Positions 1 through 24,263 of a stretch of DNA of 36,992 bases are shown one piece after another. Made by a program: the position numbers and the translations under genes. The DNA lies in NCBI GenBank assembly GCA_016764475.1, contig JAESRV010000038.1:11885-48876 (forward strand), read 5' to 3'. Numbering within the stretch: the first letter of the stretch is position 1; each line of letters opens with the position of its first letter. The notes beneath the pieces are model-generated. The model was not told the origin of the DNA. It did no database searches and saw only the letters and a program-made list of their open reading frames with translations. The DNA comes from Amylibacter sp. (GTDB lineage Bacteria > Pseudomonadota > Alphaproteobacteria > Rhodobacterales > Rhodobacteraceae).

Positions 1-2
1 TC

Positions 3-1841
3 AGTGCACTCGGCACAGAGATCAGTACCGAGTGGCAAAATGAGTTGTTAGCACAGTTGCGCAAGCAAAACGGACCGGTTTTACTGCTGCTTGTCGCCCT
101 CGGGATGATACTTATGGTGCCTGCAACCCGCTGGGCCACAAACCGTTTGCAATATGAACGTGATAAAGAACCAACGCCGCTTGGTAATGTTAAAAGTTTA
201 CTGGCGTCTCTGGCGGTGTTTATCCTGCCCGCAACTGGCTTGATTTGCATCTTCAGCGCGGTTTACATCGCGGATATTGTCTCACAACGGGGTGACCTGT
301 TCATGAATGCTGTCCCGTCTGCTGGTCTGGCGTTATTGGGTGCAAACTGGTTGGCACGCAACCTACCTCAATACAGGGATACTAGCGGCGAGCACGCGGA
401 TGAAAAGATAAAGCTGATTTTTGCAGGCCAGCGTCTGACCTGGGCTATAGGCGGTATTCTTGCCGTTGGTTATTTGGTTGGCGGATTGGATGACGGGGCA
501 GAATGGTCAGCCGACATCTTATCGACAATCATGTTTCCCTTGATTGTTCTGCTTGGGTATTGTCTGTTTCAATGTGGTCGCAAAATTAGTGCGTATCGTC
601 ATTTACTGCATGTTGAAGATGATGTGGTTAGCATCCCCGAACGCATCGCTGCAATTTATATGTGGGCTTGCTATATAACTGGGTTAGGCGGGCCTTTGTT
701 AGCCGCATTTGGCTATGCCAATGCAGGCGAAATGCTGGTTTTTTCAATGTCTTTGACATTGGCATTGTCCGCTACGGTTTTTTTCACCTACACTATTTTG
801 GTGGGCTTTCTTGTTCCTGCGGTTAAAGCGGGCGAGAATGACATAAGCGAACGGCCATCGGGCGGCTTGTTAAAGGTGGCATTGGGTTTTAGCTTAATTT
901 CCCTTTCGATCCCGGTTTTAGCGTTGATCTGGGGGGCTCGTACCAGTGATATCAGCGGCTTGTGGTTTACTTTGAATGAAGGCGTTTCATTTGGGGACGC
1001 CCGAATTTCAATATCCGACTTTCTAATCTTCGGCCTGATTTTCTTTATCGGTTACACAATCACACGGCTGTTGCAAACCACGTTACGCACAATCGTTTTC
1101 CCCAGTACAAATATTGAAAGCGGGGCGCAAAACGCGCTTGTGACCGGCTTTGGCTATGTCGGTATCTTCTTGGCGGCTCTTGTGGCCATAACCACTACTG
1201 GATTAGATCTTTCCAGCCTTGCGATTGTTGCCGGTGCTTTGTCGGTTGGTATCGGGTTTGGCTTGCAAGCGATTGTTTCAAACTTCGTATCGGGCATCAT
1301 TTTACTGATTGAACGCCCGGTGAAAATCGGCGACTGGGTTGAGATCGGGGCTTATTCTGGTACCATACGCAAAGTTTCTGTGCGTTCCACAAGTATTGAA
1401 ACTTTTGACGGGGCCACGGTGATTATCCCAAACGCTGATCTTGTGGCAGGCACAGTGACAAACTGGACACATGGCAATGTGCGTGGTCGGGTTAAAATAC
1501 CGGTCGGAGTGGCATACGGCACAGACCCCGAATTGGTCAAAGACGTATTACTATCGATTATTGATAAGCACCCGATGGTGCTGAAACTGCCCAAGCCGGC
1601 TGTGATTTTCATGGGCTTTGGTGCTGACTCGATGGATTTTCAGCTACGCGGTATTTTGCGCGATATAAATTATGTGTTGAGCACCGCATCTGATATAAAT
1701 TTTGAGATCGTCAAACGCTTTGAAGAAAACAACATTGTCATTCCGTTTGCGCAACGTGAAGTCACCATTAAAAACGCCCATGACTTTTTACCACAAGCGG
1801 CCAAGCCTGCACGTAAACCGCGGGCCAAAGCAAAGACGTAA
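3..1841 (+). CDS. MscS-family mechanosensitive channel, 5' end outside window
   Basis: The reading frame is open to the left edge, so the gene starts upstream; an internal TTG at 45 is not its true start. The first ~360 residues contain many hydrophobic helices separated by short charged loops. The last ~230 form an MscS pore and cytoplasmic domain, seen in the glycine/alanine-rich pore helix (LSVGIGFGLQAIVSNFVSGI) followed by ERPVKIGDWVEIG and a beta-domain with VIIPNADLVAGTVTNWTHG. The tail is lysine/arginine-rich. Large multi-helix MscS proteins of this kind sit in the inner membrane and release solutes on hypo-osmotic shock. An N-terminal DUF3772-type periplasmic region probably lies upstream, but that is inference. 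The gene runs towards the tRNA without a clear terminator. Confidence 0.9.
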   Translation, partial: SALGTEISTEWQNELLAQLRKQNGPVLLLLVALGMILMVPATRWATNRLQYERDKEPTPLGNVKSLLASLAVFILPATGLICIFSAVYIADIVSQRGDLFMNAVPSAGLALLGANWLARNLPQYRDTSGEHADEKIKLIFAGQRLTWAIGGILAVGYLVGGLDDGAEWSADILSTIMFPLIVLLGYCLFQCGRKISAYRHLLHVEDDVVSIPERIAAIYMWACYITGLGGPLLAAFGYANAGEMLVFSMSLTLALSATVFFTYTILVGFLVPAVKAGENDISERPSGGLLKVALGFSLISLSIPVLALIWGARTSDISGLWFTLNEGVSFGDARISISDFLIFGLIFFIGYTITRLLQTTLRTIVFPSTNIESGAQNALVTGFGYVGIFLAALVAITTTGLDLSSLAIVAGALSVGIGFGLQAIVSNFVSGIILLIERPVKIGDWVEIGAYSGTIRKVSVRSTSIETFDGATVIIPNADLVAGTVTNWTHGNVRGRVKIPVGVAYGTDPELVKDVLLSIIDKHPMVLKLPKPAVIFMGFGADSMDFQLRGILRDINYVLSTASDINFEIVKRFEENNIVIPFAQREVTIKNAHDFLPQAAKPARKPRAKAKT

Positions 1842-1927
1842 GGCTAGAGGTGCAGGATTTATAGGTCTACGCCCTAGCACTTTTAAGCTTGCCTGCCCAA
1901 ATATCCTTGTGTAAACCCGCGCCTAAC

Positions 1928-2017
1928 GGACAGGTGGCCGAGTGGTCGAAGGCGCACGCCTGGAAAGTGTGTAGGCGGGTGACCGTCTCCAGGGTTCGAA
2001 TCCCTGTCTGTCCGCCA
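1928..2017 (+). tRNA. tRNA-Ser (anticodon GGA), CCA encoded
   Basis: Folds as a class II tRNA. The acceptor stem is GGACAGG against TCTGTCC (one G-T pair), with discriminator G and an encoded CCA. The anticodon stem is CACGC/GTGTG with loop CTGGAAA, giving anticodon GGA at 1962-1964. A long variable arm follows, and the T arm is CAGGG-TTCGAAT-CCCTG. The long variable arm and GGA anticodon identify serine. Its 3' end is the left attachment site of an integrative element. Confidence 0.97.
2004..2017 (+). repeat. attL: left 14-bp direct repeat in the tRNA-Ser 3' end
   Basis: CTGTCTGTCCGCCA, the last 14 bases of the tRNA, is repeated exactly at 7757-7770. With one mismatch the match extends to 17 bases. 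Location in a tRNA 3' end, 149 bp upstream of a same-orientation tyrosine integrase gene, is the classical arrangement of an att site. Confidence 0.85.
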
Positions 2018-2165
2018 ATTCCCCTTTTTATACAATGCTGTTGAGTTACTCTAAGTGGCTTTAAGCCTTTATTTTATGGGAATAATGCCATTTATCTTTT
2101 CACTCGCTTTCTTTCGATTATACCTGTATTCTTTCACTGTGTGGTATGGAACGTGGTATTTTTGA

Positions 2166-3371
2166 ATGACCCATCTATCAGGAAAGCTGACAAAGAAGCT
2201 GGTCGAGAACCTAGGGCCGGGGAGGCATGGGGACGGCAATGGGCTTTATCTGGTTGTAGACCCGTCCGGGGCGCGGCGTTGGATTGTGCGTGTTGTGGTC
2301 AAGGGCCAGAAAAACAAGAAGGGCGCACCGCTTAGAACCGACTTTGGATTAGGTGGCGCGGATATTGTCACATTACCCCAAGCGCGTGACAGGGCGTTGG
2401 AATATCGCCGCATGGCAAAGCAGGGGCTTAACCCGCGCTTTAATGCCAGACAGGAAATCCCGACCTTTGAAGAAATCGCGCAACAGGTGCATATAGACCG
2501 TATGCCCACTTGGAAGAACGCCAAGCATGGGCAGCAATGGATTAACACACTTAGGGATTATGCCTTTCCCAAAATCGGACGGATGCCTGTGGATGCGATA
2601 GGCCAGCCCGAAGCTTTGATGTGTCTTTCCCCGATTTGGACAGAAAAGCACGAAACCGCCAAACGGGTTGCCCAGCGCATTAAGACGGTTTTGGACGTGG
2701 CGAAATCCAAAGGCTTTAGGTCAGGTGAAAACCCGATAACCGAGATTAAGGACGCCAGAGTATTACCCAAAGTAAAAACCAAGCCCAAACACCACGCGGC
2801 TATGCGCTGGCAAGATGTACCAGCCTTCTACACCGAACTGAAAACCCGCGATGCTATGGCGGCAAGGGCCTTGATGTTCACTTGCCTAACAGGGTCGCGC
2901 ACGTCCGAGGTGTTGGGGATGCAATGGGATGAGGTCGATTTTAACGCCCGTCTGTGGACGTGTCCAGCCCAGCGCATGAAAACGGACGCAGACCACCGTG
3001 TGCCGCTAACGGATGAGATGCTGGCGATACTTCTTTCACTGAAAGCAGTGATAAGTGACTATGTTTTTGAAGGCCAGAAACGCAACAGACCGATGTCCAA
3101 TATGGCTATGTTGATGCTGTTACGCCGTATGAAGGTGGAAGGTGTCACCGTTCACGGGTTCCGCTCTACATTCCGTGATTGGGCATCCGAGGTTGCCAAT
3201 GCATCGCGTGAAGTGGCAGAAATGAGCTTGTCGCATAAGGTCGGGTCGGATGTTGAACGGGCTTATGCGCGGTCTGACCTGCTGGAACGGCGGCGCGTGT
3301 TGATGGAACGCTGGTCGGGGTTTGTGGCGGGTGATGTTGGGAAGATGAAATCGGGTAGGGTAGGTGGGTAA
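2166..3371 (+). CDS. int: Tyrosine integrase of the tRNA-Ser element
   Basis: A site-specific tyrosine recombinase of the P4/DUF4102 type, 401 residues, normal for the family. The N-terminal ~90 residues form the arm-binding domain (DGNGLYLVVDPSGARRWIVR); a SAM-like core-binding domain follows. The catalytic domain shows the first arginine in TGSRTSEVLG, HGFRSTFRDWA carrying the H-x-x-R box, the SLSHKVGSDVERAYARSD segment with the second histidine, and the nucleophilic tyrosine. It should catalyse integration at, and with an excisionase excision from, the tRNA-Ser site 150 bp upstream. ATG at 2166 follows an AT-rich leader without an obvious strong ribosome binding site. It is transcribed inward into the element. 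Confidence 0.95.
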   Translation: MTHLSGKLTKKLVENLGPGRHGDGNGLYLVVDPSGARRWIVRVVVKGQKNKKGAPLRTDFGLGGADIVTLPQARDRALEYRRMAKQGLNPRFNARQEIPTFEEIAQQVHIDRMPTWKNAKHGQQWINTLRDYAFPKIGRMPVDAIGQPEALMCLSPIWTEKHETAKRVAQRIKTVLDVAKSKGFRSGENPITEIKDARVLPKVKTKPKHHAAMRWQDVPAFYTELKTRDAMAARALMFTCLTGSRTSEVLGMQWDEVDFNARLWTCPAQRMKTDADHRVPLTDEMLAILLSLKAVISDYVFEGQKRNRPMSNMAMLMLLRRMKVEGVTVHGFRSTFRDWASEVANASREVAEMSLSHKVGSDVERAYARSDLLERRRVLMERWSGFVAGDVGKMKSGRVGG

Positions 3372-3680
3372 AGATGTGAAAATAAAGCTAATTTTGAAGC
3401 TGATTCATAATTTATGGTTCACATTAGTCATTGATTATAAACAGAATAAATAATTTATTATTAAAAATAAAAACAATTTTTCAATGAGATGTTGACCCCG
3501 CGCGTCTCAGTAAACCATAATATCACATGGAGCTTAAACGGATACCATGACCTACTTCAATGACAACCACTTAGGTATTGTCAGACGTTAAAGCAGTATG
3601 GTATTGAATGCGTGACGATGGAACGGAAGGGGAACAAACAAGATGTTGTGTCGTCAGTAAGTTGTGAAATATAAGATGAA
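3372..3680. other. AT-rich non-coding gap after the integrase
   Basis: No convincing gene is seen. The first 110 bp are very AT-rich and contain the palindrome AATAAATAATTTATT at 3445-3459. TGAGA (3484-3488) and TCTCA (about 3504-3508) could form a small hairpin. Short reading fragments at 3540-3670 (for example KQYGIECVTMERKGNKQ) sit in two frames and may be the remains of a small gene, but I cannot name it. Confidence 0.4.
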
Positions 3681-3718
3681 CAGGGGCGGCTTCTGCGTGG
3701 AAACTTAGGCCGCCCCTG
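3681..3718. repeat. Perfect 10-bp GC-rich hairpin
   Basis: CAGGGGCGGC at 3681-3690 and its exact reverse complement at 3709-3718 enclose an 18-nt loop. It stands in AT-rich sequence between the integrase and the regulator operon. No T-run follows on the plus strand, so it is not a standard intrinsic terminator in that direction. Confidence 0.75.
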
Positions 3719-3744
3719 AAAATATAAAACCCGCAAGGGCCTAT

Positions 3745-3761
3745 GTAGTATTTATTACTAC
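3745..3761. promoter_or_regulatory. Operator-like palindrome before the regulator operon
   Basis: GTAGTA-TTTAT-TACTAC is a perfect 6-bp inverted repeat with a 5-nt spacer, ending 89 bp before the first gene of the operon. Its size and position suit binding by a small dimeric HTH protein such as the products of the genes that follow. This is inference from symmetry and location only. Confidence 0.4.
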
Positions 3762-3850
3762 ACCATGAATTTTAAATGGCAAATTGTTTTTCAACAAATG
3801 CCAAAGTTTCATGGCAGGCCCTTTGCTTTCAACAGGCAGAGGAGCATAAA

Positions 3851-4036
3851 ATGCCCAAACAAAAAGAACCAAAACGGTCAATCCGTATTAGAAACGCATG
3901 TGATGTTTATGATGTAAGTCGTAGTACGATTTATCGTGCAATTTACGATGGTAGAATTACCCCCGTAAAAGTGGGTGGTTGTACCATTCTAAGCGTATCC
4001 CAATTAGACAAATTGTTTTTGGGGGTTCAAGAATGA
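3851..4036 (+). CDS. Small helix-turn-helix protein, AlpA/excisionase type
   Basis: A 61-residue basic protein with a MerR/AlpA-like winged helix: VYDVSRSTIYRAIYDGRITP followed by VKVGGCTILSVSQLD, the standard shape of excisionase-family DNA-binding domains. Such proteins bend DNA at att sites or regulate the integrase. The start at 3851 is chosen because GAGGAG sits seven bases upstream; an in-frame ATG at 3776 lacks one and would add a non-conserved extension. The stop overlaps the start of the next gene by four bases (ATGA), so the two are probably translationally coupled. Confidence 0.75.
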   Translation: MPKQKEPKRSIRIRNACDVYDVSRSTIYRAIYDGRITPVKVGGCTILSVSQLDKLFLGVQE

Positions 4037-4245
4037 TAAATTTATTTAAACCCGAACAAGCCTATGTTCTAGGTGACCCAGAGCTTGACGTTATTGGAAG
4101 CCGTGAAAAGCTGGCACAATGGCGGTTCCGAAAGGTCGGGCCTGCATGGGTGAAAATTGGACGTAAGGTGACATATTTAGGTGTAGATTTAAATACCTAT
4201 ATTTCAGCGAACAGAACTGACCCAAATAAAGAGGCTGCAAAATGA
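4033..4245 (+). CDS. AlpA-like DNA-binding protein, paralogue of the gene at 9886
   Basis: A 70-residue protein with the pattern GSREKLAQWR, GPAWVKIGRKVTYLGVDL and a closing NRTDPN. This is the beta-hairpin wing of the AlpA/helix-turn-helix 'MerR-type' group, usually found as small regulators or excisionases of integrative elements. It starts in the ATGA overlap with the preceding HTH gene and ends in another with the next gene. A clearly related copy lies at 9886-10101, sharing GSREK-AQ, GPA, GRK, DL and the DPN ending. Two consecutive AlpA-like genes in one operon could divide the roles of excisionase and transcriptional control; this is inference. Confidence 0.7.
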   Translation: MINLFKPEQAYVLGDPELDVIGSREKLAQWRFRKVGPAWVKIGRKVTYLGVDLNTYISANRTDPNKEAAK

Positions 4246-4427
4246 GAAACCCCAACTCTCGCGAAGTCGGGGCTTTTCCAGTGTCATTTACTAACACCGT
4301 TAACATAACAGTGAATGCCACAGATACCCCATCCCAATCAACTGAAATCGTAAGGCGGTTTGTTTGGTGTGCTAGGTCACATTCAGTTCAACCATTTATA
4401 ATCAAGAATGGGGGGATTTGTTTATGA
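4242..4427 (+). CDS. Unknown 61-aa protein in the regulator operon
   Basis: Not recognised. The product is threonine/asparagine/valine-rich in the middle (FTNTVNITVNATDTPSQS) with a cysteine in RFVWCARSH. No signal peptide or membrane segment is evident. Its case rests on arrangement: it begins in an ATGA overlap with the gene before it and ends in an ATGA overlap with the gene after it, which would be unlikely for a chance frame. Low compositional distinctiveness keeps confidence moderate. Confidence 0.5.
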   Translation: MRNPNSREVGAFPVSFTNTVNITVNATDTPSQSTEIVRRFVWCARSHSVQPFIIKNGGICL

Positions 4428-4786
4428 GTGATTTTCACCGCATTAAGAAGCACCCCGATGTTAAGTGGGTTATGAGCCGTAAAGACCTGCCAAGGAAACG
4501 GATGCCAGCACGGTATAAAGTAACGCGACCAGATGGAACTGTGGTTGAAAAAACCTTTAGCAAGCGCAAACGTCAAACGATTGAACTTTTGTGCCAAAGT
4601 AAGGTTTTTTGCGCTAGCCCTGTTCGTATTTCCCAACATGTTTGTCTTTTGAAACACGAAGACAATATCGATATTTTTACCGAAAGCCATAAAGATAAAA
4701 ATCACGATGAACATGGCAAGTATGGGATTTACCGTTTGGAAGATAAAATCGAATATCTTGGCGAAGTTGGGCCTATTGATGGGTAA
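4424..4786 (+). CDS. Unknown 120-aa basic protein
   Basis: Not recognised. The first half is strongly basic (MSRKDLPRKRMPARYKVTRPDG, shown in part, then KTFSKRKRQT). The second half is acidic/histidine-rich (SHKDKNHDEHGKYGIYRLEDK). It contains three cysteines, two of them in LLCQSKVFCASP. The start at 4424 is preferred because GGGGGA lies seven bases upstream; an in-frame TTG at 4418 sits inside that region. It overlaps the previous gene by four bases and the following winged-helix gene by eight. A nucleic-acid-binding role would fit the basic half but is only a guess. Confidence 0.55.
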   Translation: MSDFHRIKKHPDVKWVMSRKDLPRKRMPARYKVTRPDGTVVEKTFSKRKRQTIELLCQSKVFCASPVRISQHVCLLKHEDNIDIFTESHKDKNHDEHGKYGIYRLEDKIEYLGEVGPIDG

Positions 4787-5294
4787 GTCCAGACGGCCAA
4801 AAGAGGGGCAATACATCCCCCTTTCCTATGCCCAATTAAAAAGCAAAGCATGGCGGTCTCTTTCAGGGGCCGCCGTAAAGGTCTGGCTTGAACTCCACAC
4901 GCGGTTCAATGGCGGTAATAACGGGTCACTGACGTTGTCTATGGCAGAGGCGGCGGATGCGCTGGGTATGGGTAAGGCAACCGTTCAGCGGGCGTTTAAA
5001 GAGCTTCAGGCTAAAGGCTTTCTTGTATTGGTCAAAGAAGGTGACTGGTATCACCGCCGGGCGCATGAGTGGTGTCTGACCACCAAGCCCGTGCAAGGCG
5101 TGAAAGGTAAAGTACCACCAACAAACGACTGGCGAAGCTGGCAACCGCCCAAAAAAACAAAACGCGGTTCTAAAATGGAACCGTCAGGGGCGAACGTGGT
5201 TCCAATACAGAACCCTAAGGGTGTTCATGGTTCCAAACCAGAACCCGTCAGGGGCAATTCCGGGCCGTCCTTCGGTTCTGGAATGGAACACTAA
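4779..5294 (+). CDS. Winged-helix DNA-binding protein, possible replication or partner initiator
   Basis: A 171-residue protein. Residues ~1-95 form a winged helix: a conserved-looking SGAAVKVWLELHTRFNGGNN, then LTLSMAEAADALGMGKATVQ with RAFKELQAKGFLVLVKEG as recognition helix and wing. The C-terminal ~60 residues are low-complexity, with repeated units GSKMEP, GSKPEP and GSGMEH plus VVPIQNP. At DNA level these units are four 17-bp palindromes (5166-5290). The ATG at 4779 overlaps the previous stop by eight bases; an in-frame upstream ATG at 4707 lies inside the preceding gene and is less likely. An N-terminal DNA-binding domain encoded next to its own repeat array is typical of iteron-binding initiators. 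That function is inferred, not shown. Confidence 0.7.
   Translation: MGKSRRPKEGQYIPLSYAQLKSKAWRSLSGAAVKVWLELHTRFNGGNNGSLTLSMAEAADALGMGKATVQRAFKELQAKGFLVLVKEGDWYHRRAHEWCLTTKPVQGVKGKVPPTNDWRSWQPPKKTKRGSKMEPSGANVVPIQNPKGVHGSKPEPVRGNSGPSFGSGMEH
5166..5290. repeat. Four 17-bp palindromes GGTTC-N7-GAACC
   Basis: The sites are 5166-5182, 5198-5214, 5229-5245 and 5274-5290 (the last ends GAACA). Their centres are 32, 31 and 45 bp apart. The spacer differs each time (TAAAATG, CAATACA, CAAACCA, TGGAATG), so the arms are conserved while the middle is not. All lie inside the coding end of the winged-helix gene. Confidence 0.85.
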
Positions 5295-5326
5295 TAGTAT
5301 ACCACTCACCTATGCAGGGAAGGGGC

Positions 5327-5416
5327 AAGGTTACAGCAAGGTGACAACCCCAAGGTTTCCACAATGACGGAAAGGTTACGGTAAGGGTGTCTACACAAAG
5401 GTTGCACCAAGGTTTT
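5327..5416 (+). repeat. Seven iteron-like direct repeats, AAGGTTNC core
   Basis: Copies start at 5327, 5338, 5352, 5372, 5383, 5398 and 5409: AAGGTTAC, AAGGTGAC, AAGGTTTC, AAGGTTAC, AAGGGTGTC, AAGGTTGC, AAGGTTTT. Spacings are 11, 14, 20, 11, 15 and 11 bp, with the 11-bp step recurring. They fill the non-coding stretch between the winged-helix gene and the HTH/HGGxSTG gene. The pattern resembles iterons of a replication origin or a multi-site operator. Confidence 0.7.
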
Positions 5417-5493
5417 GCCGTTCTTTGCATTAAGATGGTTTTGTATAGACTGGTAAAGCAAAAGATGTTGCAGCATGAAAACACGGGTATAAA

Positions 5494-5994
5494 ATGGGAC
5501 TGACAGGGGCGGAATTGAAAGCGGCGCGTAAAGCCAAAAGGCTTAACCAGACGGAACTGGGTGCACTGGCAGGGGTCGCACGGTGTACCGTTTCCTATTG
5601 GGAAAACAAGCAGGGCCAGCTTCCAAACAGCGGCGGGCTTAATCTGATGCTGGATGCGCTGGGTTTAGAGCATTTGAAGTATTTCCATGCCAATAACGCG
5701 CCCGCGCGGGGATGGGGTATTATTGATACTCAGCAAGAGTGGGTTAATCGACAGGCCCAGCGCGAGCTGCAACGCCTGAAAGAGCGCGAACAAGACCGGG
5801 TTGCCAACATGCGTGTGCAATGCCGTGCAAAGACCCGCAAGGGCCGCCCCTGTAAACTTATGAGTGAAGCGGGGCGCAAGCGGTGCAAATTTCATGGCGG
5901 CATGTCTACAGGGCCTAAAACGGCTCAGGGCAAGGCGCGAATTGCAGAGGCGCAGCGCATGAGGTGGCAGAGGTATAGGGATAACCAGTTATAG
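5494..5994 (+). CDS. HTH (XRE) protein with C-terminal HGGxSTG motif
   Basis: A 166-residue protein. Residues ~1-60 are a Cro/C1-type helix-turn-helix (LTGAELKAARKAKRLNQTEL with VARCTVSYWENKQG). A helical, arginine/glutamine-rich linker follows. The end is a compact cysteine/histidine region, CRAKTRKGRPCKL, then RCKFHGGMSTGPKT, then KARIAEAQRMRW. This is the HGGxSTG domain, a common but functionally uncharacterised module of phage and island proteins; its cysteines and histidine suggest a small metal-binding fold. Fusion of that module to an XRE domain points to a DNA-binding regulator of the element. It lies 77 bp beyond the direct-repeat array, which may contain its operator. Confidence 0.75.
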   Translation: MGLTGAELKAARKAKRLNQTELGALAGVARCTVSYWENKQGQLPNSGGLNLMLDALGLEHLKYFHANNAPARGWGIIDTQQEWVNRQAQRELQRLKEREQDRVANMRVQCRAKTRKGRPCKLMSEAGRKRCKFHGGMSTGPKTAQGKARIAEAQRMRWQRYRDNQL

Positions 5995-6028
5995 TCGCTA
6001 TTTTTCACAAATTGAAAAAACGAGGGTT

Positions 6029-6295
6029 TTATACCAGTGATATTTGTACTTCACGGCCCACGGCTTTTGCATATGCGCGTAAGCGGCTCATGCTGATATT
6101 GCGCCCCGCTTCAATTTGGGAAACCGCGCTTTGCTTTGTTCCCATACGTTTGGCAACTTGCGCCTGAGTAAGCCCTGCACTGGCCCTTGCCCCAATCAGC
6201 GCACGGGCAATAGAAAATTCTTCCTCAAGAGAACCATAGGCTTCCTTGTATTCGGGGTCTTTCATGGATTGTTCGTGTAGTTTTTTAATACCCAT
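6029..6295 (-). CDS. HigA-type antitoxin (XRE family)
   Basis: 88 residues with an XRE helix-turn-helix in the second half: GARASAGLTQAQVAKRMGTK then SAVSQIEAGRNISMSRLRAY, ending in a short beta strand (REVQISLV). The N-terminal part is helical and acidic, as expected for toxin neutralisation. It starts one base after the stop of the upstream toxin gene, in the toxin-first order characteristic of higBA. It should bind and silence the toxin and repress the shared promoter. Confidence 0.88.
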   Translation of the reverse strand: MGIKKLHEQSMKDPEYKEAYGSLEEEFSIARALIGARASAGLTQAQVAKRMGTKQSAVSQIEAGRNISMSRLRAYAKAVGREVQISLV

Positions 6296-6296
6296 G

Positions 6297-6617
6297 TCAC
6301 ACTTCCTTTGCTCTTTTCCGTGCCAAGTCCAAAGCGGATTTTGGCGTTTTTTGCGTCTTCTTTACAAAGGCGTGAAGAACAACAATTTCTTGTTCCCCGG
6401 CCTTGATATAGATACCGCGCCCGATACCTTCTTTACCTCTTGCCCGAATTTCCCATAGACCCGACCCAAGAGGGCGGACATAGGGCATTCCAACCATTTC
6501 AGGGCCGAACTCTATCAAGAGGTCAATTATCCTGAAAAAACTGGCTCGAACCTGAACAGGCAAGGCTAGAATTTCTTTTTCAACTCTATGGTCGAGAGTT
6601 CTAACCGTCCAATTCAT
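6297..6617 (-). CDS. HigB-type toxin (RelE superfamily, Gp49-like)
   Basis: 106 residues. The Gp49-like RelE fold is recognisable from PYVRPLGSGLWEIRARGKEG, the strands GIYIKAGEQEIVVLHAFVKK and the C-terminal basic helix TQKTPKSALDLARKR. Family members cleave mRNA on the ribosome. It is the first gene of a two-gene operon with the antitoxin. Upstream of the start, the CCTATACGTTATACTTG stretch is AT-rich and partly symmetrical and could hold the operator. Confidence 0.88.
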   Translation of the reverse strand: MNWTVRTLDHRVEKEILALPVQVRASFFRIIDLLIEFGPEMVGMPYVRPLGSGLWEIRARGKEGIGRGIYIKAGEQEIVVLHAFVKKTQKTPKSALDLARKRAKEV

Positions 6618-6935
6618 ATATTACCTATACGTTATACTTGTTAAGATTGCAATAAGCCTGTTTCTAGACTTAATTCACCTGCCCGCCCTCTTTAGTATCA
6701 TGCCGTTGCCTAGTCGCAATAAATTTGAAAATACACAATTACTTTCATTGAGTGAACGAAATGCCTGCAATCCGATCAAACTGGATTTTCTTTGCGGTGG
6801 CGCGTTACCCTTGGGGGCCTTTTCGTTCCAGAAGTACCTTTTTCATTTATTATTTCAATATTACTGCGAAAAGCAATATTGACTAAGTACCCCATTGGGG
6901 TTGCATTAAGTACCCCATCGGGTTATATACCCATA
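6618..6935. promoter_or_regulatory. Gap between two divergent toxin-antitoxin operons; operator repeats 6884-6934
   Basis: Carries the promoters of both modules. On the right, TAAGTACCCCAT occurs at 6884-6895 and 6907-6918, with a partial third copy (TATACCCAT, 6926-6934) abutting the toxin ATG. The first copy extends into the perfect palindrome CCCCATTGGGG. These look like operators for the downstream XRE antitoxin. GAACGAAA (6754-6761) and TTTCGTTC (6821-6828) are also inverted repeats. A 40-codon frame from 6761 is not convincing as a gene. Confidence 0.55.
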
Positions 6936-7268
6936 ATGCAAACTGTAGCTGAAATGCCGACCTTTACCAAGCAGGCCGAAAAACTTTTAAGTGCGGATGA
7001 GCGCAAGCATGTAATCGACTTTTTATCGCAAAACCCGTTATCTGGCGATGTGATACAAGGTACGGGCGGTGTCCGAAAGGTTCGTATTGCCGCTTCAGGT
7101 CGCGGGAAACGTGGCGGGGCGCGGGTGATTTACTACTTTCTGGATGAAAGTATTCCGCTTTATGCTTTGGCAATTTATGCAAAGAACGCAAAGACCGACC
7201 TGACCCATGATGAAAAGAACGCGGCAAAGTTACTTGTTGAAGAATTGAAAAAGCTATCGAAAGGATAA
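6936..7268 (+). CDS. RelE/ParE-family toxin (HigB2-like)
   Basis: 110 residues with the RelE-type pattern: TFTKQAEKLLSADERKHVID, a basic core GGVRKVRIAASGRGKRGGAR, the strand VIYYFLDESIPLYALAIYAK and the C-terminal NAKTDLTHDEKNAAKLLVEE. Members are ribosome-dependent ribonucleases. ATG at 6936 is chosen because the family begins close to this point and the operator repeats lie directly upstream; longer in-frame starts would run through those repeats. The antitoxin gene follows after three bases. Confidence 0.88.
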   Translation: MQTVAEMPTFTKQAEKLLSADERKHVIDFLSQNPLSGDVIQGTGGVRKVRIAASGRGKRGGARVIYYFLDESIPLYALAIYAKNAKTDLTHDEKNAAKLLVEELKKLSKG

Positions 7269-7271
7269 GAC

Positions 7272-7547
7272 ATGACCACCTTTGGAACCGACCTGATCCA
7301 GTCTCTGAATGAAGCCATTGCCCATGCGAAGGGCCAAGGCCCGGCGATTGTACACTATGCCCTAGAGGTCAAGAAAGTGCGTGAAAAATCCAACCTGACC
7401 CAAAAGGATATGGCGGCCCTTATGGGTGTCAGCCTGTCTGGGTATCGAAAATGGGAACAGGATGTGCGCAAACCAAGAGGCCCCGCCCTGACGCTTTTGC
7501 GCGTCATGGATAAAAACCCGCAAGCTGTTATCGAGGCTCTTGGATAA
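7272..7547 (+). CDS. NadS/HigA-like antitoxin (XRE family)
   Basis: 91 residues. The N-terminal half is helical (TDLIQSLNEAIAHAKGQG). The C-terminal half is an XRE domain: EVKKVREKSNLTQKDMAALM, then GVSLSGYRKWEQDVRKPRGP, ending with ALTLLRVMDKNPQAVIEAL. This matches the NadS type that accompanies HigB2/RelE toxins. It starts three bases after the toxin stop, again toxin first. It probably binds the TAAGTACCCCAT repeats upstream of the operon. Confidence 0.88.
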   Translation: MTTFGTDLIQSLNEAIAHAKGQGPAIVHYALEVKKVREKSNLTQKDMAALMGVSLSGYRKWEQDVRKPRGPALTLLRVMDKNPQAVIEALG

Positions 7548-7696
7548 TAAGTTAGGCATAGGGCGGATAAGGGAGTGCGGTGAAATAAACTTTTTCCTGC
7601 TATGTGAAAGGCATGGAAGCTTTCCTAATGAGGGAAATAATACAGCAAAAAAAGTAGCGTTAAATTGAGCGCGGTGTGGTATTAAATGTGGTACTA

Positions 7697-8459
7697 TTAT
7701 CTTGGTAAGATATATAATCCATAATTAACAATGTAATAGCGAATTAGTTCGGCGGACTGTCTGTCCGCCATTTCACACTTGCCTATGTGAAGACCCTCTA
7801 ACACCTTGAATGGTAAGGTAGTTTTTGGGGTTCGAAGTCCTTGATTCCAGCAGTATGCGATACGCTCGTAAAAGGCCAATTTTAGCACAGTTCTCTTGAG
7901 GGTAAGTTGACCTGATTCCCATAGTTTCCAAGGGTTTGCGAGGAAACTGGTGGCGAGTTCGAACAAATCGTCGAAGCTATGCGCTGGCTTCACCCCATTT
8001 TGCTGTTTTTCGGCTAAAACCAGCTTATCAGTCTCCAGTTTTGACAGACGTTTTTCGTATGCTGCAATGACGCGCGGGTTTTCAGTTTCCACGAGACGAT
8101 CAAGCAGGCTTTCAATTTTCTTATCTACTTGCACCGCTTCACGCTTAAGGCCGTGCAGCATGCTCTCTGCCTGTGCCATGCGTTGCGCCCAGACATCTTT
8201 GAACATTGCCTTCACCAAAGCATACAAGCCCTCAGAGGGCTGTAGAGCGCGCACGACCTCGGCAAAATCACCTTCCAGCACATCACGGCGGATAGACTTG
8301 CGATAGCTAACGCAGCCTTTGGTTGGGCAGAGATAATACGGATGTTTCTTTTTGGTCTTACTGGTGGACCAGCAAGCCGTCAGCGGTTTTTCGCAGTCGT
8401 TACACAGGACGAACCCACGCAGTGGAAAATCGGCACTGATATCTTTGCGCGCAGGAACG
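7697..8459 (-). pseudogene. Large serine recombinase, C-terminal fragment
   Basis: Reading leftward from 8459 the frame gives VPARKDISADFPLRGFVLC, then the recombinase zinc ribbon (CNDCEKPLTACWS and YYLCPTKGC). A long coiled-coil region follows (about 8170-7960, including KLETDKLVLAEKQQNG), with the usual end LATSFLANPWKLWESGQLTL. The catalytic serine domain and most of the recombinase domain are missing. The segment that should precede it is found inverted on the other strand from 8461. The last ~20 codons run through the right att repeat of the adjoining element, so its natural end may have been replaced. Confidence 0.85.
7757..7770 (+). repeat. attR: right 14-bp direct repeat
   Basis: CTGTCTGTCCGCCA is identical to the tRNA-Ser 3' end at 2004-2017. 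Here it also forms half of a perfect hairpin, GGCGGAC-TGTCT-GTCCGCC (7751-7769). It marks the right border of the integrative element. Confidence 0.82.
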
Positions 8460-8460
8460 C

Positions 8461-8580
8461 GTGCGGCTTACGTCGAAGCCCCTGATTGGGATGTGTCTTT
8501 GCGCAAAGGTCATCATGAAGGGTTGATCTCTCTGGAAACCTTCCAAACCGTTCAACGGCGCATGAAGGAAACGCCGCCCG
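8461..8580 (+). pseudogene. Inverted fragment of the serine recombinase
   Basis: The plus strand reads AYVEAPDWDVSLRKGHHEGL, ISLETFQTVQRRMKET. In large serine recombinases this piece directly precedes the PARKD...FPLRGFVLC segment, which here lies on the minus strand from 8459. The two pieces therefore belong to one gene and have been separated by an inversion with a breakpoint near 8460. Beyond about 8580 the similarity stops. There is no start codon or catalytic domain, so it is not functional. Confidence 0.8.
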
Positions 8581-8612
8581 ATCACGCCTTGGGTGCAGTT
8601 GGTGGAATAGCA

Positions 8613-8870
8613 TTAGCGCCCGCCTTCCTTAAAGAAGGCGACATAGCCGCAGCGACCGTTTGATGCAGAAATCGTGAACATTCCAAACGGCCCCCAAAAC
8701 GTGCAAGATGTATAAAAACGCGGGCGAAATGGATCATATGCGTTGCCATTATTTACAAATTCATACGACCAAATTGTGTGAGGAAGCCCGACAGTGACGA
8801 AGCCGCTGTAAAGGGCTATGGGTATCAAAACCCAATAGAAGAAGCTCAGGCGAAAGAAACGAGGTTTCAT
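8613..8870 (-). CDS. Small membrane protein downstream of traG remnant
   Basis: 85 residues with one N-terminal hydrophobic segment (FFYWVLIPIALYSGFVTVGL) followed by an aromatic-rich, probably periplasmic tail with two cysteines (SCTFWGPFGMFTISASNGRC). Function unknown. It starts in an ATGA-type overlap with the TraG-type gene fragment and so belonged to the same conjugation operon. Small membrane proteins after coupling-protein genes are common in alphaproteobacterial transfer regions. The frame looks intact, but its operon partner is broken, so it is probably no longer expressed usefully. Confidence 0.55.
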   Translation of the reverse strand: MKPRFFRLSFFYWVLIPIALYSGFVTVGLPHTIWSYEFVNNGNAYDPFRPRFYTSCTFWGPFGMFTISASNGRCGYVAFFKEGGR

Positions 8871-9413
8871 TTGCGGCCTCCTTTTTTGATATCAAGGGTT
8901 ACGCGTGGATCAGCAGGACGTTGCAGACCCTCCAACGGATTATCTGCCAACTCGCCATGACAAAACGGCGCAATCTGGTGTTGCTGAATTTTGCGACAAT
9001 GGAAAAATCCAACATCTTTGATGTGTAGGATTTGTTCATCAGGTTTCAGACGCATCAACCGTTCGGCAGAAAACATCCGGTCTTTGCTGGTGCCGATATT
9101 GCCGGTGTAATCCAGTTGCCCTGAATTGAATCCAAGGCTTTTATTGATAACCAGAGCCTCGCCCATGGCGCGGCTCACCCGCTCCGCTTCCTCAAAAGAA
9201 GAAAAACCGAACCACTGTTTAATCACAGCGTTTTCTTCAATCGTGGCGGTTTCTTTTTCACCGTAGGCGCGTTGAAGTTCCGAACGGCTTTGGACAATAA
9301 AGTGGCAGTTGCCACCAAATCCGCGCATGACAGTTAGGGCTGACACAATGGCTTTTAATGGCGCATTTGTTGCTTCATCTAGGATAAAATCGACTTGGCC
9401 TTCACATATTTGG
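8867..9413 (-). pseudogene. traG: TraG/VirD4-type coupling protein, C-terminal fragment
   Basis: From about 9410 leftward: VDFILDEATNAPLKAIVSAL, then TVMRGFGGNCHFIVQSRSEL and NAVIKQWFGFSSFEEAERVS. The DEATNAP stretch is the Walker B region, and the rest is the TraM-recognition/ATPase C-terminal domain of type IV coupling proteins. These pump DNA into a conjugation channel. The N-terminal membrane region and Walker A are absent; upstream codons in this frame have no coupling-protein character, and an unrelated plus-strand frame begins at 9414. It is a relic of a lost conjugative element. Confidence 0.85.
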
Positions 9414-9758
9414 ATTTCGGATACGGAGGTTAAGCGAATTGTTGAAAGAACTGTGAAGCCGTTTATCGGATGGGCTTTGATTTGGGATAAAAATGATTTT
9501 CCCGATGATTTATTCAAAATTTTTGAGCAATTAGGCATAGGTGAGGATTCTTGGCATACATCACCGATTGCTATCCCTAAAGTAAAAATTGGCCGCCCTA
9601 AATTTGAAAAAGCATTTGAATGTTTTAAAAGTATGAATTTTGATAGAGGCTCTTTGTCGTGGAAGGAGCTTATTAATTTGATTGCAGAGAAAACAGGCGA
9701 AATTCCAAATGAATCAACTTATCGCTCTTGGGTAAGAAAAAACAAAGGTAATGGGTGA
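9414..9758 (+). other. Unknown reading frame, probably a 5'-truncated gene
   Basis: The frame is open further left, but that part is only the complement of the traG remnant. From 9414 it reads EVKRIVERTVKPFIGWALIW, later IPKVKIGRPKFEKAFECFKS, and ends with TYRSWVRKNKGNG. Composition is AT-rich, unlike the flanking core genes. The basic C-terminus with SLSWKELINLIAEKTGEIPN could be a small helix-turn-helix. No family is recognised. The start appears lost at the junction with traG. Confidence 0.4.
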
Positions 9759-9885
9759 ACAGGAAAAACACATAACGTAGAAAATAGCGCAGAAACTCAT
9801 TTTCCTTTTTACGTTTATACGGTGTTCACAACTCAATAAACATGCCCATAAAATGATGTCATTGAAACTATGCAGGAGCATTCCA

Positions 9886-10101
9886 ATGACAGAACCAACC
9901 CAACTATTCGACCAACAACGCACATACCAACCAACCGACCCGGAAATTATTGCATTGCTTGGCAGTAGGGAAAAACAAGCCCAAATGCGCCACTATGGCA
10001 GAGGGCCAGCCTTCTTTCGCTTGGGCCGCAAGATTATCTACCACGGCAAAGATTTATGCGAATGGGCTAATGCCAGCCGCATAGACCCAAATGCTACTTA
10101 A
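9886..10101 (+). CDS. AlpA-like DNA-binding protein, second copy
   Basis: 71 residues with the same plan as the product at 4033: PEIIALLGSREKQAQMR, GPAFFRLGRKIIYHGKDL and a closing SRIDPN. It is predicted to be a winged HTH regulator or excisionase of an integrative element. AGGAG lies eight bases upstream of the ATG at 9886, which decides the start over an ATG at 9853. There is no companion integrase, so it is likely a survivor of an older element of the same kind. The sequence has diverged well beyond a recent duplication. Confidence 0.65.
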   Translation: MTEPTQLFDQQRTYQPTDPEIIALLGSREKQAQMRHYGRGPAFFRLGRKIIYHGKDLCEWANASRIDPNAT

Positions 10102-10201
10102 ACTAACACCCACGACCATCGAAATAGGCGCGGGTGTCAGAAATAGTCTAAGCAACTCTTCTTTACAGCTCGCGTCCTTCAAATTCAAGGACAACAATAA
10201 A

Positions 10202-10684
10202 ATGAAAAATGAAACAATCACCCATTGGGGTAAAGCTACCTATGTAATCCAAAATGAAGGTTCCGCACCTTTTAAAATAACAGTGTCGGGGCGCGACAGG
10301 TGGGCATTGGTTGCGGCCACGGTATTGATTGAAATGCCCGAGATAGGAACCATGACGCGAAAACAGGCTGCAAGCTTGACGGGAGTAGCACCAATGACGC
10401 GCCAATCTGCTTCTTGGCGATTGCAAGCAATCACCTGTCAGCCAGTGGAAAAATGGCAGGGGAAATCCTTTATTCAAGGCGGGCGAAAAACCGTGCGCGA
10501 GGCCCTCTACATGCCAGCCCTTGTTGCCGCGCGGTTTAATCCAGATCTCAAGGCAAAGTATGTTAAAATGGTTGCAGCAGGAAACCCCCCAAAGATCGCC
10601 CTGACGGCCCTCATGCGTAAGCTTATAGAAGCTGCAAACGCGCTTATCAAAGCAGACAGATTATGGATTGAAAAATGTGCCTGA
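10202..10684 (+). pseudogene. IS110-family transposase C-terminal fragment fused to foreign N-terminus
   Basis: From about residue 34 the frame is the C-terminal (transposase_20) half of an IS110-type DEDD transposase: MPEIGTMTRKQAASLTGVAP, later KSFIQGGRKTVREALYMPAL, VAARFNPDLKAKYVKMVAAG and LTALMRKLIEAANALIKADR. The catalytic N-terminal half is missing. The first ~33 residues (MKNETITHWGKATYVIQNEG) do not resemble IS110 and appear to come from a disrupted resident gene. About 14 extra residues (RLQAITCQPVEKWQ) interrupt the conserved stretch between SASW and GKSFI. It is not functional as a transposase. Confidence 0.8.
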
Positions 10685-11009
10685 TTAAGACGGATACTCC
10701 CAGAAAGAAAACCGAAGCTGCCATCGCCGTGAACTGCCTCAATAGGTTCACCGGGCTCGGCATGCCGGTGAGCGCCAAAATTATCTGAAACGTGCGGGGA
10801 TAGGAGGTGTCTGTTTGATCGACATTCTATGCAAGAACGCCGGCTATTGTTGAAGGATAATTGTTCAAAACCCACTTCATTCACGCCTCGAAAATCCTGA
10901 TCTAGGATACATTATTTTTTACCCAGATTTCAGAGTGTAGATAACGCCATTTCAGCAAGTTTTACTGGTACCGCTTGCGGCACTCAAAACTTTACCCTAA
11001 GCCCGTGTC
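10685..11009. other. Non-coding gap before the MATE gene
   Basis: The left part (10690-10790) still reads AAIAVNCLNRFTGLGMPVSA on the plus strand to a stop at about 10789. It may be another gene remnant, but I do not recognise it. The remainder holds the MATE promoter region; no clear operator or terminator was found. Confidence 0.35.
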
Positions 11010-12356
11010 ATGACTCAAACAATGACATATAACGGCCACGCAAAAGCGGTGCTGGTGCTGGGGCTGCCGTTGGTTGGCAGCAACATTGCACAGATGGCGA
11101 TCGGTATGACCGATACGGTGATGATGGGGTGGTACGGGGTGCCTGATCTGGCGGCAATGGTTTTGGCCAGTTCAATGTATTTTCTGTTTTTCATTGTCGG
11201 CGCAGGTTTTGCTTTTGCGGTAATGCCGCTGGTGGCAAACGCGGCCAGTGCAGGCGATGATACCCAAGTGCGCCGGGTGACGCGGATGGGTTTTTGGGCC
11301 TCTACTGCCTACGTCATCATTATGCTCCCTATTCTGTGGTGGGCCGAAACCTGGCTGGTGGCGGTGGGGCAAGACCCCGTTGTCGCAGGTCTGGCGCAGG
11401 ATTACCTGCGCATTGCCAGCTTCGGCTTGTTGCCCGGCTTGTTTATCATGGTGATGCAAAGCTATCTGTCTGCCCAGGAACATACCACGATTGTGTTGTG
11501 GGTAACGCTTGTAGGTGCGGTTTTGAACGGCCTCTTGAACTACGCACTGATTTTCGGGCATTGGGGCGCACCCGAGCTGGGCATACGCGGGGCGGCTATT
11601 TCGTCTGTGCTGATGCTGACGCTCAGCGTGCCAATACTGGCCCTATATGCCGCGCGAAACTTGCCGCAACACGCACTTTTCCAACGCATTTGGCGCATTG
11701 ATACACAGGCCTTGGGCCAGGTGTTCCGGTTGGGCTGGCCCATCGGGCTTACCAGCCTGTCGGAAACCTCGCTTTTTACGGCCACAGCCCTGATGATGGG
11801 TTGGATCGGTACGTTGCAACTGGCCGCCCACGGTATAGCACTGCAATGGACTGCTGTTGCATTCATGGTGCATGTCGGCTTAGCGAACGCTGCCACCGTG
11901 CGGGCAGGGCGCGCAGTGGGGCGTGATGACAGTGCAGGCTTGCGCCGTGGCGGGATTGCTGTACTTGCGATGGCTGTGATATTCTCTTGCGCGGTGGTTA
12001 TCGTATTTATAACCCTGCCCGAATTGATGGTGGGTATATTTCTTGACAACGCAGAACCTGCACGTGATGAGATCATGATTATCGGCGTCAGCTTGCTTGC
12101 GATGGCTGCCCTTTTCCATGTGGCAGACAGCACCCAAGTCATTGCCCTTGGGCTGCTGCGGGGCGTGCAAGATGCACGCATTCCACTGCTACTGGCCGTG
12201 ATCAGCTATTGGTTGGTTGGCATACCTGCGGGCTATCTGTTTGGGTTCACATGGGGGTATGGCGCGGTTGGTATCTGGATGGGGCTGGTATGCGGGCTAA
12301 CGTTATCCGCCGTACTGCTGAATTACCGGTTTTGGACAAGAAGCTGGGTGAAATAA
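11010..12356 (+). CDS. MATE-family multidrug/cation exporter
   Basis: 448 residues, the normal size, with about twelve hydrophobic helices in two homologous halves. The first MatE repeat begins LGLPLVGSNIAQMAIGMTDT, typical of NorM-type proteins; the second begins RLGWPIGLTSLSETSLFTAT. It would act in the inner membrane as a Na+- or H+-coupled antiporter that expels cationic compounds. Substrates cannot be told from sequence. It ends in a TAATG overlap with the decayed proline-racemase-family gene, so the two formed an operon. Composition is that of core genes, and it marks the return to chromosomal backbone. Confidence 0.92.
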   Translation: MTQTMTYNGHAKAVLVLGLPLVGSNIAQMAIGMTDTVMMGWYGVPDLAAMVLASSMYFLFFIVGAGFAFAVMPLVANAASAGDDTQVRRVTRMGFWASTAYVIIMLPILWWAETWLVAVGQDPVVAGLAQDYLRIASFGLLPGLFIMVMQSYLSAQEHTTIVLWVTLVGAVLNGLLNYALIFGHWGAPELGIRGAAISSVLMLTLSVPILALYAARNLPQHALFQRIWRIDTQALGQVFRLGWPIGLTSLSETSLFTATALMMGWIGTLQLAAHGIALQWTAVAFMVHVGLANAATVRAGRAVGRDDSAGLRRGGIAVLAMAVIFSCAVVIVFITLPELMVGIFLDNAEPARDEIMIIGVSLLAMAALFHVADSTQVIALGLLRGVQDARIPLLLAVISYWLVGIPAGYLFGFTWGYGAVGIWMGLVCGLTLSAVLLNYRFWTRSWVK

Positions 12357-20023: not shown

Positions 20024-20168
20024 AGTTGATATATAATAAGCGTAGTAATCCATGAAAAACTTTAACTGTGCGGGATGATTCACTTTGTTTATGCCAAAGA
20101 ATAAATTTATCAAAAATTGGGCATATGTTTTTAATATAATATCGGCATTTCAAAAAGACTGTATAGGT

Positions 20169-22340: not shown

Positions 22341-22352
22341 AGGAGAACTGAA

Positions 22353-24260
22353 ATGTCTGACGAAACTAAGAAAAAAGGCGTTACAAGGCGTGGTGTACTG
22401 GGGGCTACTGCAACTGGTGCTGTGCTGGCAAGCACAGGTGCCGGGGCTGCATTACTGGGCGCAAAACCTGCACAAGCAGCAACTGGCAGAAAATTTGAAC
22501 TGGCACCGGGTGAACTGGACGAATATTATGGTTTCTGGTCTTCGGGCCAAGCGGGTGAATTGCGTATTTTAGGCTTTCCATCCATGCGCGAACTGATGCG
22601 CGTGCCTGTGTTTAACCGCTGCTCTGCTACTGGTTGGGGCCAAACCAACGAGTCGTTGAAAATCCTGACCGAAGGCCTGTTGCCGGAAACCAAAGAGTTC
22701 TTGGCAAAACGTGGCATGAAAACCTATGATAACGGCGATTTGCACCATCCGCATATGTCGTTCACAGACGGTACATATGACGGTCGCTATCTGTTCATGA
22801 ACGACAAGGCCAACACCCGTGTTGCCCGTGTGCGTTGTGACGTGATGAAATGCGACAAGATGATTGAAGTCCCTAACGCTAATGACATCCACGGGTTGCG
22901 TCCGCAAAAATTTCCGCGCACCGGGTATGTTTTTGCCAATAGTGAACACGAAGCACCCCTGGTCAATGATGGTAAAATTCTGGATGAGCCGGAAAAATAT
23001 GTGAACATCTTTACCGCGATTGACGGCGACGAGATGAAAGTAGCATGGCAGGTGATTGTATCAGGCAACCTTGATAACACCGACTGTGACTATCAGGGAA
23101 AATATGCTTTCTCGACCAGCTACAACTCTGAAATGGGTATGAACCTGGCTGAAATGACTGAAAGCGAAATGGATCATGTGGTTGTCTTTAATCTAAAACG
23201 TATTGAAGAAGGTGTTGCTGCGGGCGATGTTCAAATCCTGAATGGCGTGCCTGTGATTGATGGGCGTAAAGGGTCTAAATACACCCGTTATATTCCGATC
23301 CCGAACAGCCCGCACGGTTGCAACACGGCCCCTGACAAACGCCACATCATGATCTCGGGCAAACTATCCCCGACAGTGTCAGTGATAGATGTGACTTTGG
23401 TGGATGCGCTGTTTGAAGACGATGCTGACCCACGGTCATGCATTGTGGCAGAACCACAGTTGGGTCTTGGCCCGCTTCACACGGCTTTTGACGGACAAGG
23501 CAACTGTTTTACGACGTTGTTCCTGGACAGCCAGGTGGTCAAATGGAATATCGACAAAGCGTTGCGTGCCTATAAAGGCGAAGACGTGGATCCGATTATT
23601 TCCAAGGTCGATGTGCATTATCAACCGGGTCACAACCATACCAGCATGGGTGAGACATTAGAGGCCGATGGCAAATGGCTTATTTCGATGAACAAGTTTT
23701 CAAAAGACCGCTTCATCAATACCGGCCCGTTGAAACCGGAAAATGAGCAATTGATCGACATATCTTCTGATGACATGAAAGTCGTCCATGATGGCCCGAC
23801 ATTTGCCGAACCACATGATGCGATCATCGTGAAAAGTTCGATAGTTAACCCGGTGAACGTCTGGGATCGTAATGATCCGATGTGGGCGGATGCGGCGGCA
23901 CAAGCCAAGGCGGATGGTGTTGATCTGGAAGAAGGCTCTGAAACTGTCATTCGTGACGGCAACAAGGTACGGGTCTACATGTACTCTATCGCGCCTACGT
24001 TCAGTCTGGAAAAATTCACTGTTAAAGAGGGTGATGAGGTAACAGTTTATGTCACCAACCTTGATGATGTGGATGATGTGACCCACGGCTTTACGATTTC
24101 AAACTATGGCATTGCAATGGAAGTAGCTCCACAAGCAACGGCTTCAATCACGTTTACAGCGGATCGTCCGGGTGTACACTGGTTCTATTGCCAATGGTTC
24201 TGTCACGCACTTCACATGGAAATGCGCGGCCGGATGCTAGTAGAGCCGAAAGAAAGCTAA
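22353..24260 (+). CDS. nosZ: Nitrous oxide reductase, clade I (Tat-exported)
   Basis: 635 residues. A twin-arginine signal ([20 protein letters not shown]) defines clade I NosZ. The seven-bladed propeller holds the CuZ histidines, visible in [75 protein letters not shown] and FAEPHDAI. The C-terminal cupredoxin has the complete CuA motif [15 protein letters not shown]. It reduces N2O to N2 in the periplasm as a homodimer. A strong AAGGAGA lies eight bases before the ATG, and the gene follows nosR by 12 bp. No key residue is missing. Confidence 0.98.
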
Positions 24261-24263
24261 ACC

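Follow-up and report, generated by a model that had tools for sequence, protein, structure and literature searches.

The 3′ end of a winged-helix gene of Amylibacter sp. carries an array of four palindromes with shared arms, which probably serves as the initiator-binding portion of a replication origin overlapping the gene of its own cognate initiator, in a small mobile element integrated at a tRNA gene. The window referred to here is the whole stretch of DNA analysed, with 36,992 nucleotides. The element occupies positions 2018-7770 (5,753 bp) and is integrated at a tRNA-Ser gene, whose last 14 bp are repeated, within the window, at 2004 and 7757 only. The features of the element are presented in Table 1.

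Table 1. Features of the Amylibacter element and its integration site, in window coordinates.
Feature	Position	Strand	Basis or remark
tRNA-Ser(GGA), integration target	1928..2017	+	ARAGORN, Rfam tRNA; last 14 bp (2004-2017) are attL
Tyrosine integrase (Arm-DNA-bind_3, Phage_int_M, Phage_integrase)	2166..3371	+	Pfam, above cut-offs
AlpA-like HTH_17 protein	3776..4036	+	HTH_17 (PF12728) E 2.2e-7; Phage_AlpA (PF05930) only E 0.14
Second small HTH-like gene	4036..4245	+	weak HTH_17, E 0.085
Small gene directly 5′ of the winged-helix gene	4418..4786	+	HTH_91 winged helix, only E 0.034
Winged-helix protein, 171 aa, proposed initiator	4779..5294	+	PHROG, Pfam, AlphaFold model
Conserved A-rich tract	5153..5168	+	consensus AAAAACAnAACnCnGT; seeded motif search; about two turns before site 1 centre
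Palindrome site 1	5166..5182		GGTTCTAAAATGGAACC, exact
Palindrome site 2	5198..5214		GGTTCCAATACAGAACC, exact
Palindrome site 3	5229..5245		GGTTCCAAACCAGAACC, exact
Palindrome site 4	5274..5290		GGTTCTGGAATGGAACA, one arm base off; abuts stop codon
Conserved AT box	5287..5308	+	AACACTAATAGTATACCACTCA in the window; family form roughly ACAtnnATAnnTAnCCA; seeded motif search
Cargo: XRE-type HTH protein with HGGxSTG domain	5494..5994	+	NF041373 E 5e-15; HTH_3
Cargo: toxin-antitoxin-like pair (HTH_3 and Gp49/DUF891)	6029..6617	-	Pfam
Cargo: HTH_3/MqsA-like antitoxin-type gene	7272..7547	+	Pfam
attR	7757..7770		CTGTCTGTCCGCCA, repeat of tRNA 3′ end

No primase was found among the nine element proteins scanned, the ORFs at 4242-4427 and 6792-7268 being outside that scan. 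Among relatives, the position of the small gene preceding the winged-helix gene is occupied by other small genes (upstream gene clusters 6 and 8). Past attR, between 7771 and 10700, lie remnants, namely a VirD4-like C-terminal fragment (8867-9538, NF045973 E 7e-14), a C-terminal fragment of an IS110 transposase (10091-10684, E 3e-14) and a segment, 9853-10101, similar by eye to the element gene at 4036-4245. Farther along, the ORF list for 20085-28686 reads like a nitrous-oxide reductase (nos) gene cluster, which is outside the present finding.

The array covers positions 5166-5290. Three of its sites are exact copies of GGTTC-N7-GAACC and the last has a single mismatch, so that of the four sites named in the original prediction three stand as described and the fourth is a near match. 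Their centre-to-centre distances are 32, 31 and 45 bp and all lie in the last 130 bp of the winged-helix ORF, with the TAA at 5292-5294 directly after them; both the spacing and the location in the coding end had been read correctly. The A-rich tract, the AT box and the limits of the element were not part of that prediction. Exact matches to the pattern occur nowhere else in the window, and the 3.04-Mb assembly contains five, three of them in this array. With up to two mismatches allowed, the entire window contains 15 matches against 14.1 expected by chance, which means that the signal is the clustering of exact sites with like arms. Palindromes of the 5-7-5 form with any arms are common (55 in the window); the array score of 20.0 was above all of 20 Markov shuffles, which reached at most 12.8. 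On the 3′ side of the AT box, AAGGT is present six times in about 90 bp (5327-5413); homologues diverge past the box and no counterpart was noticed in them.

Genomes encoding a relative of the winged-helix protein numbered 53 of 394 in the family of the window's organism; relatives with a name include Boseongicola, Sulfitobacter, Roseobacter and Halocynthiibacter. The counts of 28 of 385 in the class and 54 of 398 in the phylum include many weak matches (E near 1e-4) that may be other HTH proteins. A tblastn search with three query proteins recovered relatives on four large plasmids, of Mesorhizobium, Sinorhizobium, Tritonibacter and Cupriavidus, and on one phage record, a 16-kb Pseudomonas aeruginosa sequence (locus L130) in which the gene is annotated as 'replication protein O'. 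No small plasmid relying on this family was present among the plasmid and phage matches to the three queries.

In close relatives (56-72% identity) the array is mostly kept in place, and the arms are mostly GGTTC/GAACC. Variants are GGTCC/GGACC in L005, whose last site has one mismatch, and GGGTCC/GAACCC-like arms in L006-L009 and L068. The reading frame ends within the array in L005, L006 and L063, with palindromes continuing beyond it, and the L009 tail is encoded in a different frame. Distant relatives, of roughly 25-40% identity, present different palindromes, as GTCCT/AGGAC (L042), GTCAC/GTGAC (L045, L053), GTCCCT/AGGGAC (L108) and GGTACA/TGTACC (L130). Among the arrays that surpassed their shuffles, 51 in number, 26 left 5-mers were counted, some of which are register shifts. 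The arms also differ between L130 and L178, whose proteins are 81% identical. Seven genomes with two or more elements were compared for their arms. The arms differ, with both arrays above shuffles, in G342 (L046/L097) and in G332 (L083/L089, L089 being only a weak relative), and they are similar in the two elements of G047; in each of G013, G050, G141 and G349 at least one array was not above its shuffles. The differences within G342 and between L130 and L178 are those that cognate specificity predicts, unlike what is expected of host-factor sites, and the suggestion that the palindromes might instead recruit a host factor is disfavoured by them.

A search for like-armed palindromes was carried out on 81 loci, which are the 91 available minus 10 with truncated, weak or misplaced matches. 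The array exceeded all 20 shuffles in 51 of these loci and did not in the other 30, L060 among them. The expectation that homologue 3′ ends would carry shared-arm palindromes of other sequence is borne out at the same place in many relatives, although not in the 30 loci that did not beat all shuffles; this fits the proposal that the winged-helix product may bind its own gene in the manner of iteron initiators. Scores of 13 or more were obtained for 50 of 81 array regions, against 82 of 486 other regions. Four classes of gap, 21-23.5, 30.5-33.5, 43-45.5 and 52-55 bp, hold 142 of the 162 gaps in the 51 arrays; the corresponding counts are 84 of 536 for shuffles and 157 of 828 for other parts of these loci. 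These classes were picked on the 81-locus set, and loci from viral contigs, fetched later, served as the test set: 42 of 44 were above shuffles and 149 of 160 gaps fell within the four classes. The test set excludes L151 and was not de-duplicated; L161 and L163, as well as L146 and L147, have the same array text, L139, L141 and L142 are near copies, as are L144 and L145, and two loci overlap with the earlier set, L166 being a match to L073 and L139 closely resembling L132. The pairwise distances between sites gave a best helical period of 10.9 bp (R 0.67), which places the sites on one helical face.

Two conserved boxes flank the arrays, and both were searched with motif seeds taken from sequences already viewed. 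For the A-rich tract, the log-likelihood over 125 loci was 525, against 99-111 on shuffled loci. Of at most 89 arrays, 59 have the tract starting 20-22 bp ahead of the first centre; a match at 18-26 bp before the first centre, loose in some cases, was found in 64 of 89 loci, distributed over the three reading frames as 32, 18 and 14. The AT box was called, in a search run without a shuffled control, in 85 loci (6 of the 91 being left out), and 19 calls judged wrong by eye were removed. In the resulting 66 loci, the distance from the AT box to the ATG has a median of 526 bp (5-95% range 492-601), and the distance to the stop codon goes from -85 to +145. In 73 of 89 loci, chosen for the motif, AT content reaches 0.75 over the 10 bp starting at +10 past the last centre, against about 0.4-0.55 around it. 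In 57 of 89 loci the array runs across the stop codon; in 25 it ends before the codon, and in 7 it begins past it. The recurrent unit is composed of the A-rich tract, usually three to five phased palindromes whose arms are shared and element-specific, and the AT box; its distance from the start codon of the winged-helix gene falls within narrow limits. Since arrays cross stop codons and the tract is read in three frames, the unit is under selection as DNA, as had been proposed against selection on the protein alone.

The relatives are commonly found in integrated elements. In 48 of 62 family loci a tyrosine integrase gene of the same orientation is present no more than 6 kb upstream, and for 25 of these 48 exact repeats were found at the 3′ end of a tRNA. 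The 25 elements delimited in this way range from 3,751 to 12,104 bp (median 5,636), and 14 of them have 5,753 bp or less; the distance from array to attR varies among them. In the ten smallest (up to 4,642 bp), the arrays of L041, L067, L080 and L093 are above all shuffles, and those of L054, L057 and L094 did not beat theirs. L098 (4,057 bp) has an AT box and three sites with gaps of 53 and 44, and its score ties with the best shuffle; L072 (4,025 bp) has an AT box and two weak sites; and in L060, the smallest of the delimited elements, neither an array nor an AT box is clear. The remaining genes of these ten elements are the integrase, an AlpA-type gene, small upstream genes and few others. 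Recurrent downstream cargo was also observed, namely 'MGGxGSGR' proteins (13 loci) and a family whose members have about 177 residues (12 loci), at positions counted from the winged-helix start such as 590-1352 in L062 and 632-1280 in L094; the L007 member of the 177-residue family had no Pfam match.

Some relatives belong to phage-like records. In a prophage-like record of 34.5 kb, PHROGs recognised terminase, head-tail adaptor, internal virion proteins, tail spike, endolysin and integrase, and the winged-helix protein was the sole replication-family match among 22 proteins scanned of about 41 ORFs. This record is probably from Sinorhizobium, because its array is almost the same as in S. meliloti L132. 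Genes for portal, capsid or terminase are also close to L138 and L147. Exact terminal repeats were found in none of 11 whole viral contigs, and the L151 contig has a near-terminal repeat of 22 bp. The relative in the phage-like contig of L138 (3316-4317, 334 aa) extends well past the array and box, being nearer to the lambda O layout.

The window protein was matched by PHROG families of replication initiation, DnaD-like and O-like proteins (E 3e-7 to 1e-6), the O-like ones weakly, at 1e-6 at best. Pfam returned general winged-helix matches only (MarR_2 and HTH_36), that to HTH_36 (PF13730) just under the cut-off, and neither Phage_rep_O nor the RepA_N domain was matched at E up to 1. The array region encodes the part of the protein beyond about residue 125, a repetitive tail of low complexity that has low confidence in the AlphaFold model. 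This model, built with 7 sequences, is weak overall (mean pLDDT 59.8), with domain blocks reaching up to 83. Its top five PDB matches in Foldseek are plasmid RepA initiator domains (4pql, 5kbj, 4pt7; E 4.7e-4 to 3e-3), with TM-scores of about 0.4-0.5 and just one E under 1e-3; CodY comes next at 4e-3, other regulators are close, 4pta is tenth, and the TubR structures 3m8f, 3m8e and 4asn are among the lower matches. By sequence profile, regulators come first (E 0.0013) and RepA proteins follow at 0.06-0.34 (4pta at 0.059). The protein ends at 5291, just past site 4, with no C-terminal domain after the array. Before the array, at residues about 114-121, the short motif TNDWRSW is present, seen by eye as TKDFxxW in relatives, and it is a candidate partner-binding peptide.

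As a replication origin, the unit would work as follows. Dimers of the winged-helix protein would bind the palindromes on one helical face, and the complex of protein and array would strain or open the adjoining AT box. Helicase and primase of the host or of a helper phage would be recruited there, so that the excised circle would replicate. The arms may have diversified as in plasmid incompatibility groups, so that neighbouring elements would not cross-react. The PHROG matches to replication initiators and the RepA domains at the head of the fold matches argue for an origin, as do the arrays above shuffles, the gap classes with their helical period, the AT box placed by the ATG and not by the stop codon, the arrays across stop codons, the A-rich tract in three frames, the sizes of the delimited elements, the sole replication-family match in the 34.5-kb record and the 'replication protein O' annotation of L130. 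Against it are the AT-rich stretch, which at about 10 bp is small for an unwinding region, the 30 of 81 loci not above shuffles (L060 included), the 11 whole viral contigs without exact terminal repeats, the missing counterpart of the C-terminal domain of lambda O or pSK41 RepA, the weakness of the model, with regulators close in fold and first by profile, and the lack of a sole-replicon plasmid among the matches to the three tblastn queries. Also against it is the comparison of recognition helices with arms, which was not significant over 34 disjoint pairs (Spearman 0.10, p 0.59), a result weak either way, with some arm profiles mis-registered. Within 644 close, non-independent pairs, helix identity was 0.464 in 169 pairs with different arms (0.683 outside the helix) and 0.626 in 135 pairs with the same arms (0.731 outside); global helix-arm correlations were not specific to the helix.

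The main alternative, which we regard as unlikely, is that the winged-helix protein is a regulator and the palindromes are its operators, with the AT box as the -10 element of a promoter directed either forward, to the cargo, or leftward, for an antisense RNA across the array. The MarR_2 and other regulator HTH matches agree with it. On the minus strand the AT box can be read by eye as an extended -10 (TGGTATACT), at 5287-5308 of the window and in L114, and site 1 with the A-rich tract (5165-5183) forms a terminator-like hairpin followed by a T-tract, one of two such structures in the region against 1.3 expected. However, a simple consensus search revealed no sigma-70-type promoter in 4700-5700, some small elements (L098, L072) have little behind the unit, and phased sites over about 110-120 bp exceed the needs of an operator. 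The -10-like and terminator-like sequences on the minus strand point to a possible leftward RNA across the array. Such a transcript could equally belong to an origin, with the oop RNA of lambda as a parallel.

It is far less probable that the unit is a segregation or architectural site, bound by a centromere-binding adaptor of the TubR or ParR kind or by an organiser of the element for recombination. Phased arrays on one face suit such proteins, and TubR is represented in the lower fold matches; nevertheless, no ParA, ParM or TubZ gene was noticed by eye among the ORFs of the ten small elements, and the distance from array to attR varies.

Equally small is the probability we give to palindromes that serve as host-factor binding sites or RNA hairpins and not as sites of the element's own protein. 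They could fold as RNA, the helix-arm comparison was negative, and the two elements of G047 have similar arms. Host-factor sites were rejected since the arms vary by element, within G342 and G332 and between L130 and L178, with their 81% identical proteins; hairpins were rejected since all sites of one element share their arms, which hairpins do not require, and Rfam found only the tRNA in window positions 1-12000. Chance or protein-level repeats, to which the low-complexity tail and the small number of four sites could point, are refuted by the spacing in the later loci, the arrays across stop codons and the A-rich tract in three frames, and have a negligible probability.

Beyond the window, we give even chances to a broader reading of the origin, in which the family would represent an undescribed and widespread class of minimal integrated replicons (from about 4 kb up) and some temperate phages of Pseudomonadota, with a primase-less winged-helix initiator and a portable origin located in and beyond its own gene. 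The architecture would be fixed and the palindromes would switch freely; a conserved host factor would recognise the invariant box, or the box would itself be the site of opening, and the compatibility of co-resident elements would be set by arm switching. The signature, in which palindromes of whatever sequence stand at fixed, phased gaps and are enclosed by two constant boxes, would identify the origins in a large group of small mobile elements. These elements also offer a natural series of initiator-site pairs for the study of changes in binding specificity, and are small enough to ask what a mobile replicon minimally needs.

In the open-licence literature searched, no description of this winged-helix family was found. 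The elements resemble phage satellites. The PICMI and Gram-negative PICI satellites are described with integrase, AlpA and a replication module (PMC10803314, PMC6092414); PICMI115 has 6,110 bp, and the PICMI model accepts AlpA as PF05930 or PF12728 (PMC10803314). The window element likewise has an integrase, flanking att repeats and an AlpA-type PF12728 protein, but those satellites are described with a primase, which was not found here, and PICMI integrates next to fis, whereas the window-type elements are at tRNA genes. The RepA of PLE, a satellite family of Vibrio cholerae, is reported as an initiator for which neither primase nor helicase function is predicted, acting with semi-palindromic iterons in an integrated element (PMC7145576). 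A non-primase initiator, palindromic sites and integration are also seen in the window, although the PLE origin is described as non-coding, in an 18 kb element with a serine recombinase (PMC7145576).

In the RepA_N plasmid pSK41, RepA binds an origin inside its own gene; pSK41 and pTZ2162 have four Rep boxes in the rep gene, the protein encoded by the origin DNA is dispensable, and in the pPR9 variant a PF13730 HTH replaces RepA_N (PMC5703833). The window system resembles these plasmids in the sites inside the gene and in the PF13730 match just under the cut-off; RepA domains lead the fold matches of the weak model, with regulators close behind. It differs in the missing RepA_N match and C-terminal DnaG-binding domain, and in being carried by integrated elements instead of plasmids.

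The C-terminal domain of lambda O recruits the helicase loader, and the window protein has neither a Phage_rep_O match nor a C-terminal domain after its array. Other differences from lambda O are the phased gaps of 22, 32, 44 and 53 bp in the winged-helix family, the arrays that often cross the stop codon and the very diverse arms. Initiator-binding iterons and an AT-rich tract inside the initiator gene are described for the O/ori of lambdoid phages, as lambda and the Stx phages (PMC7466680). The window is similar in that its sites are all in the ORF and the AT box lies across the stop codon, the AT stretch being short. An origin inside the initiator gene is of a known kind, represented by lambda and pSK41, and the family, the geometry of the sites and their setting appear to be new.
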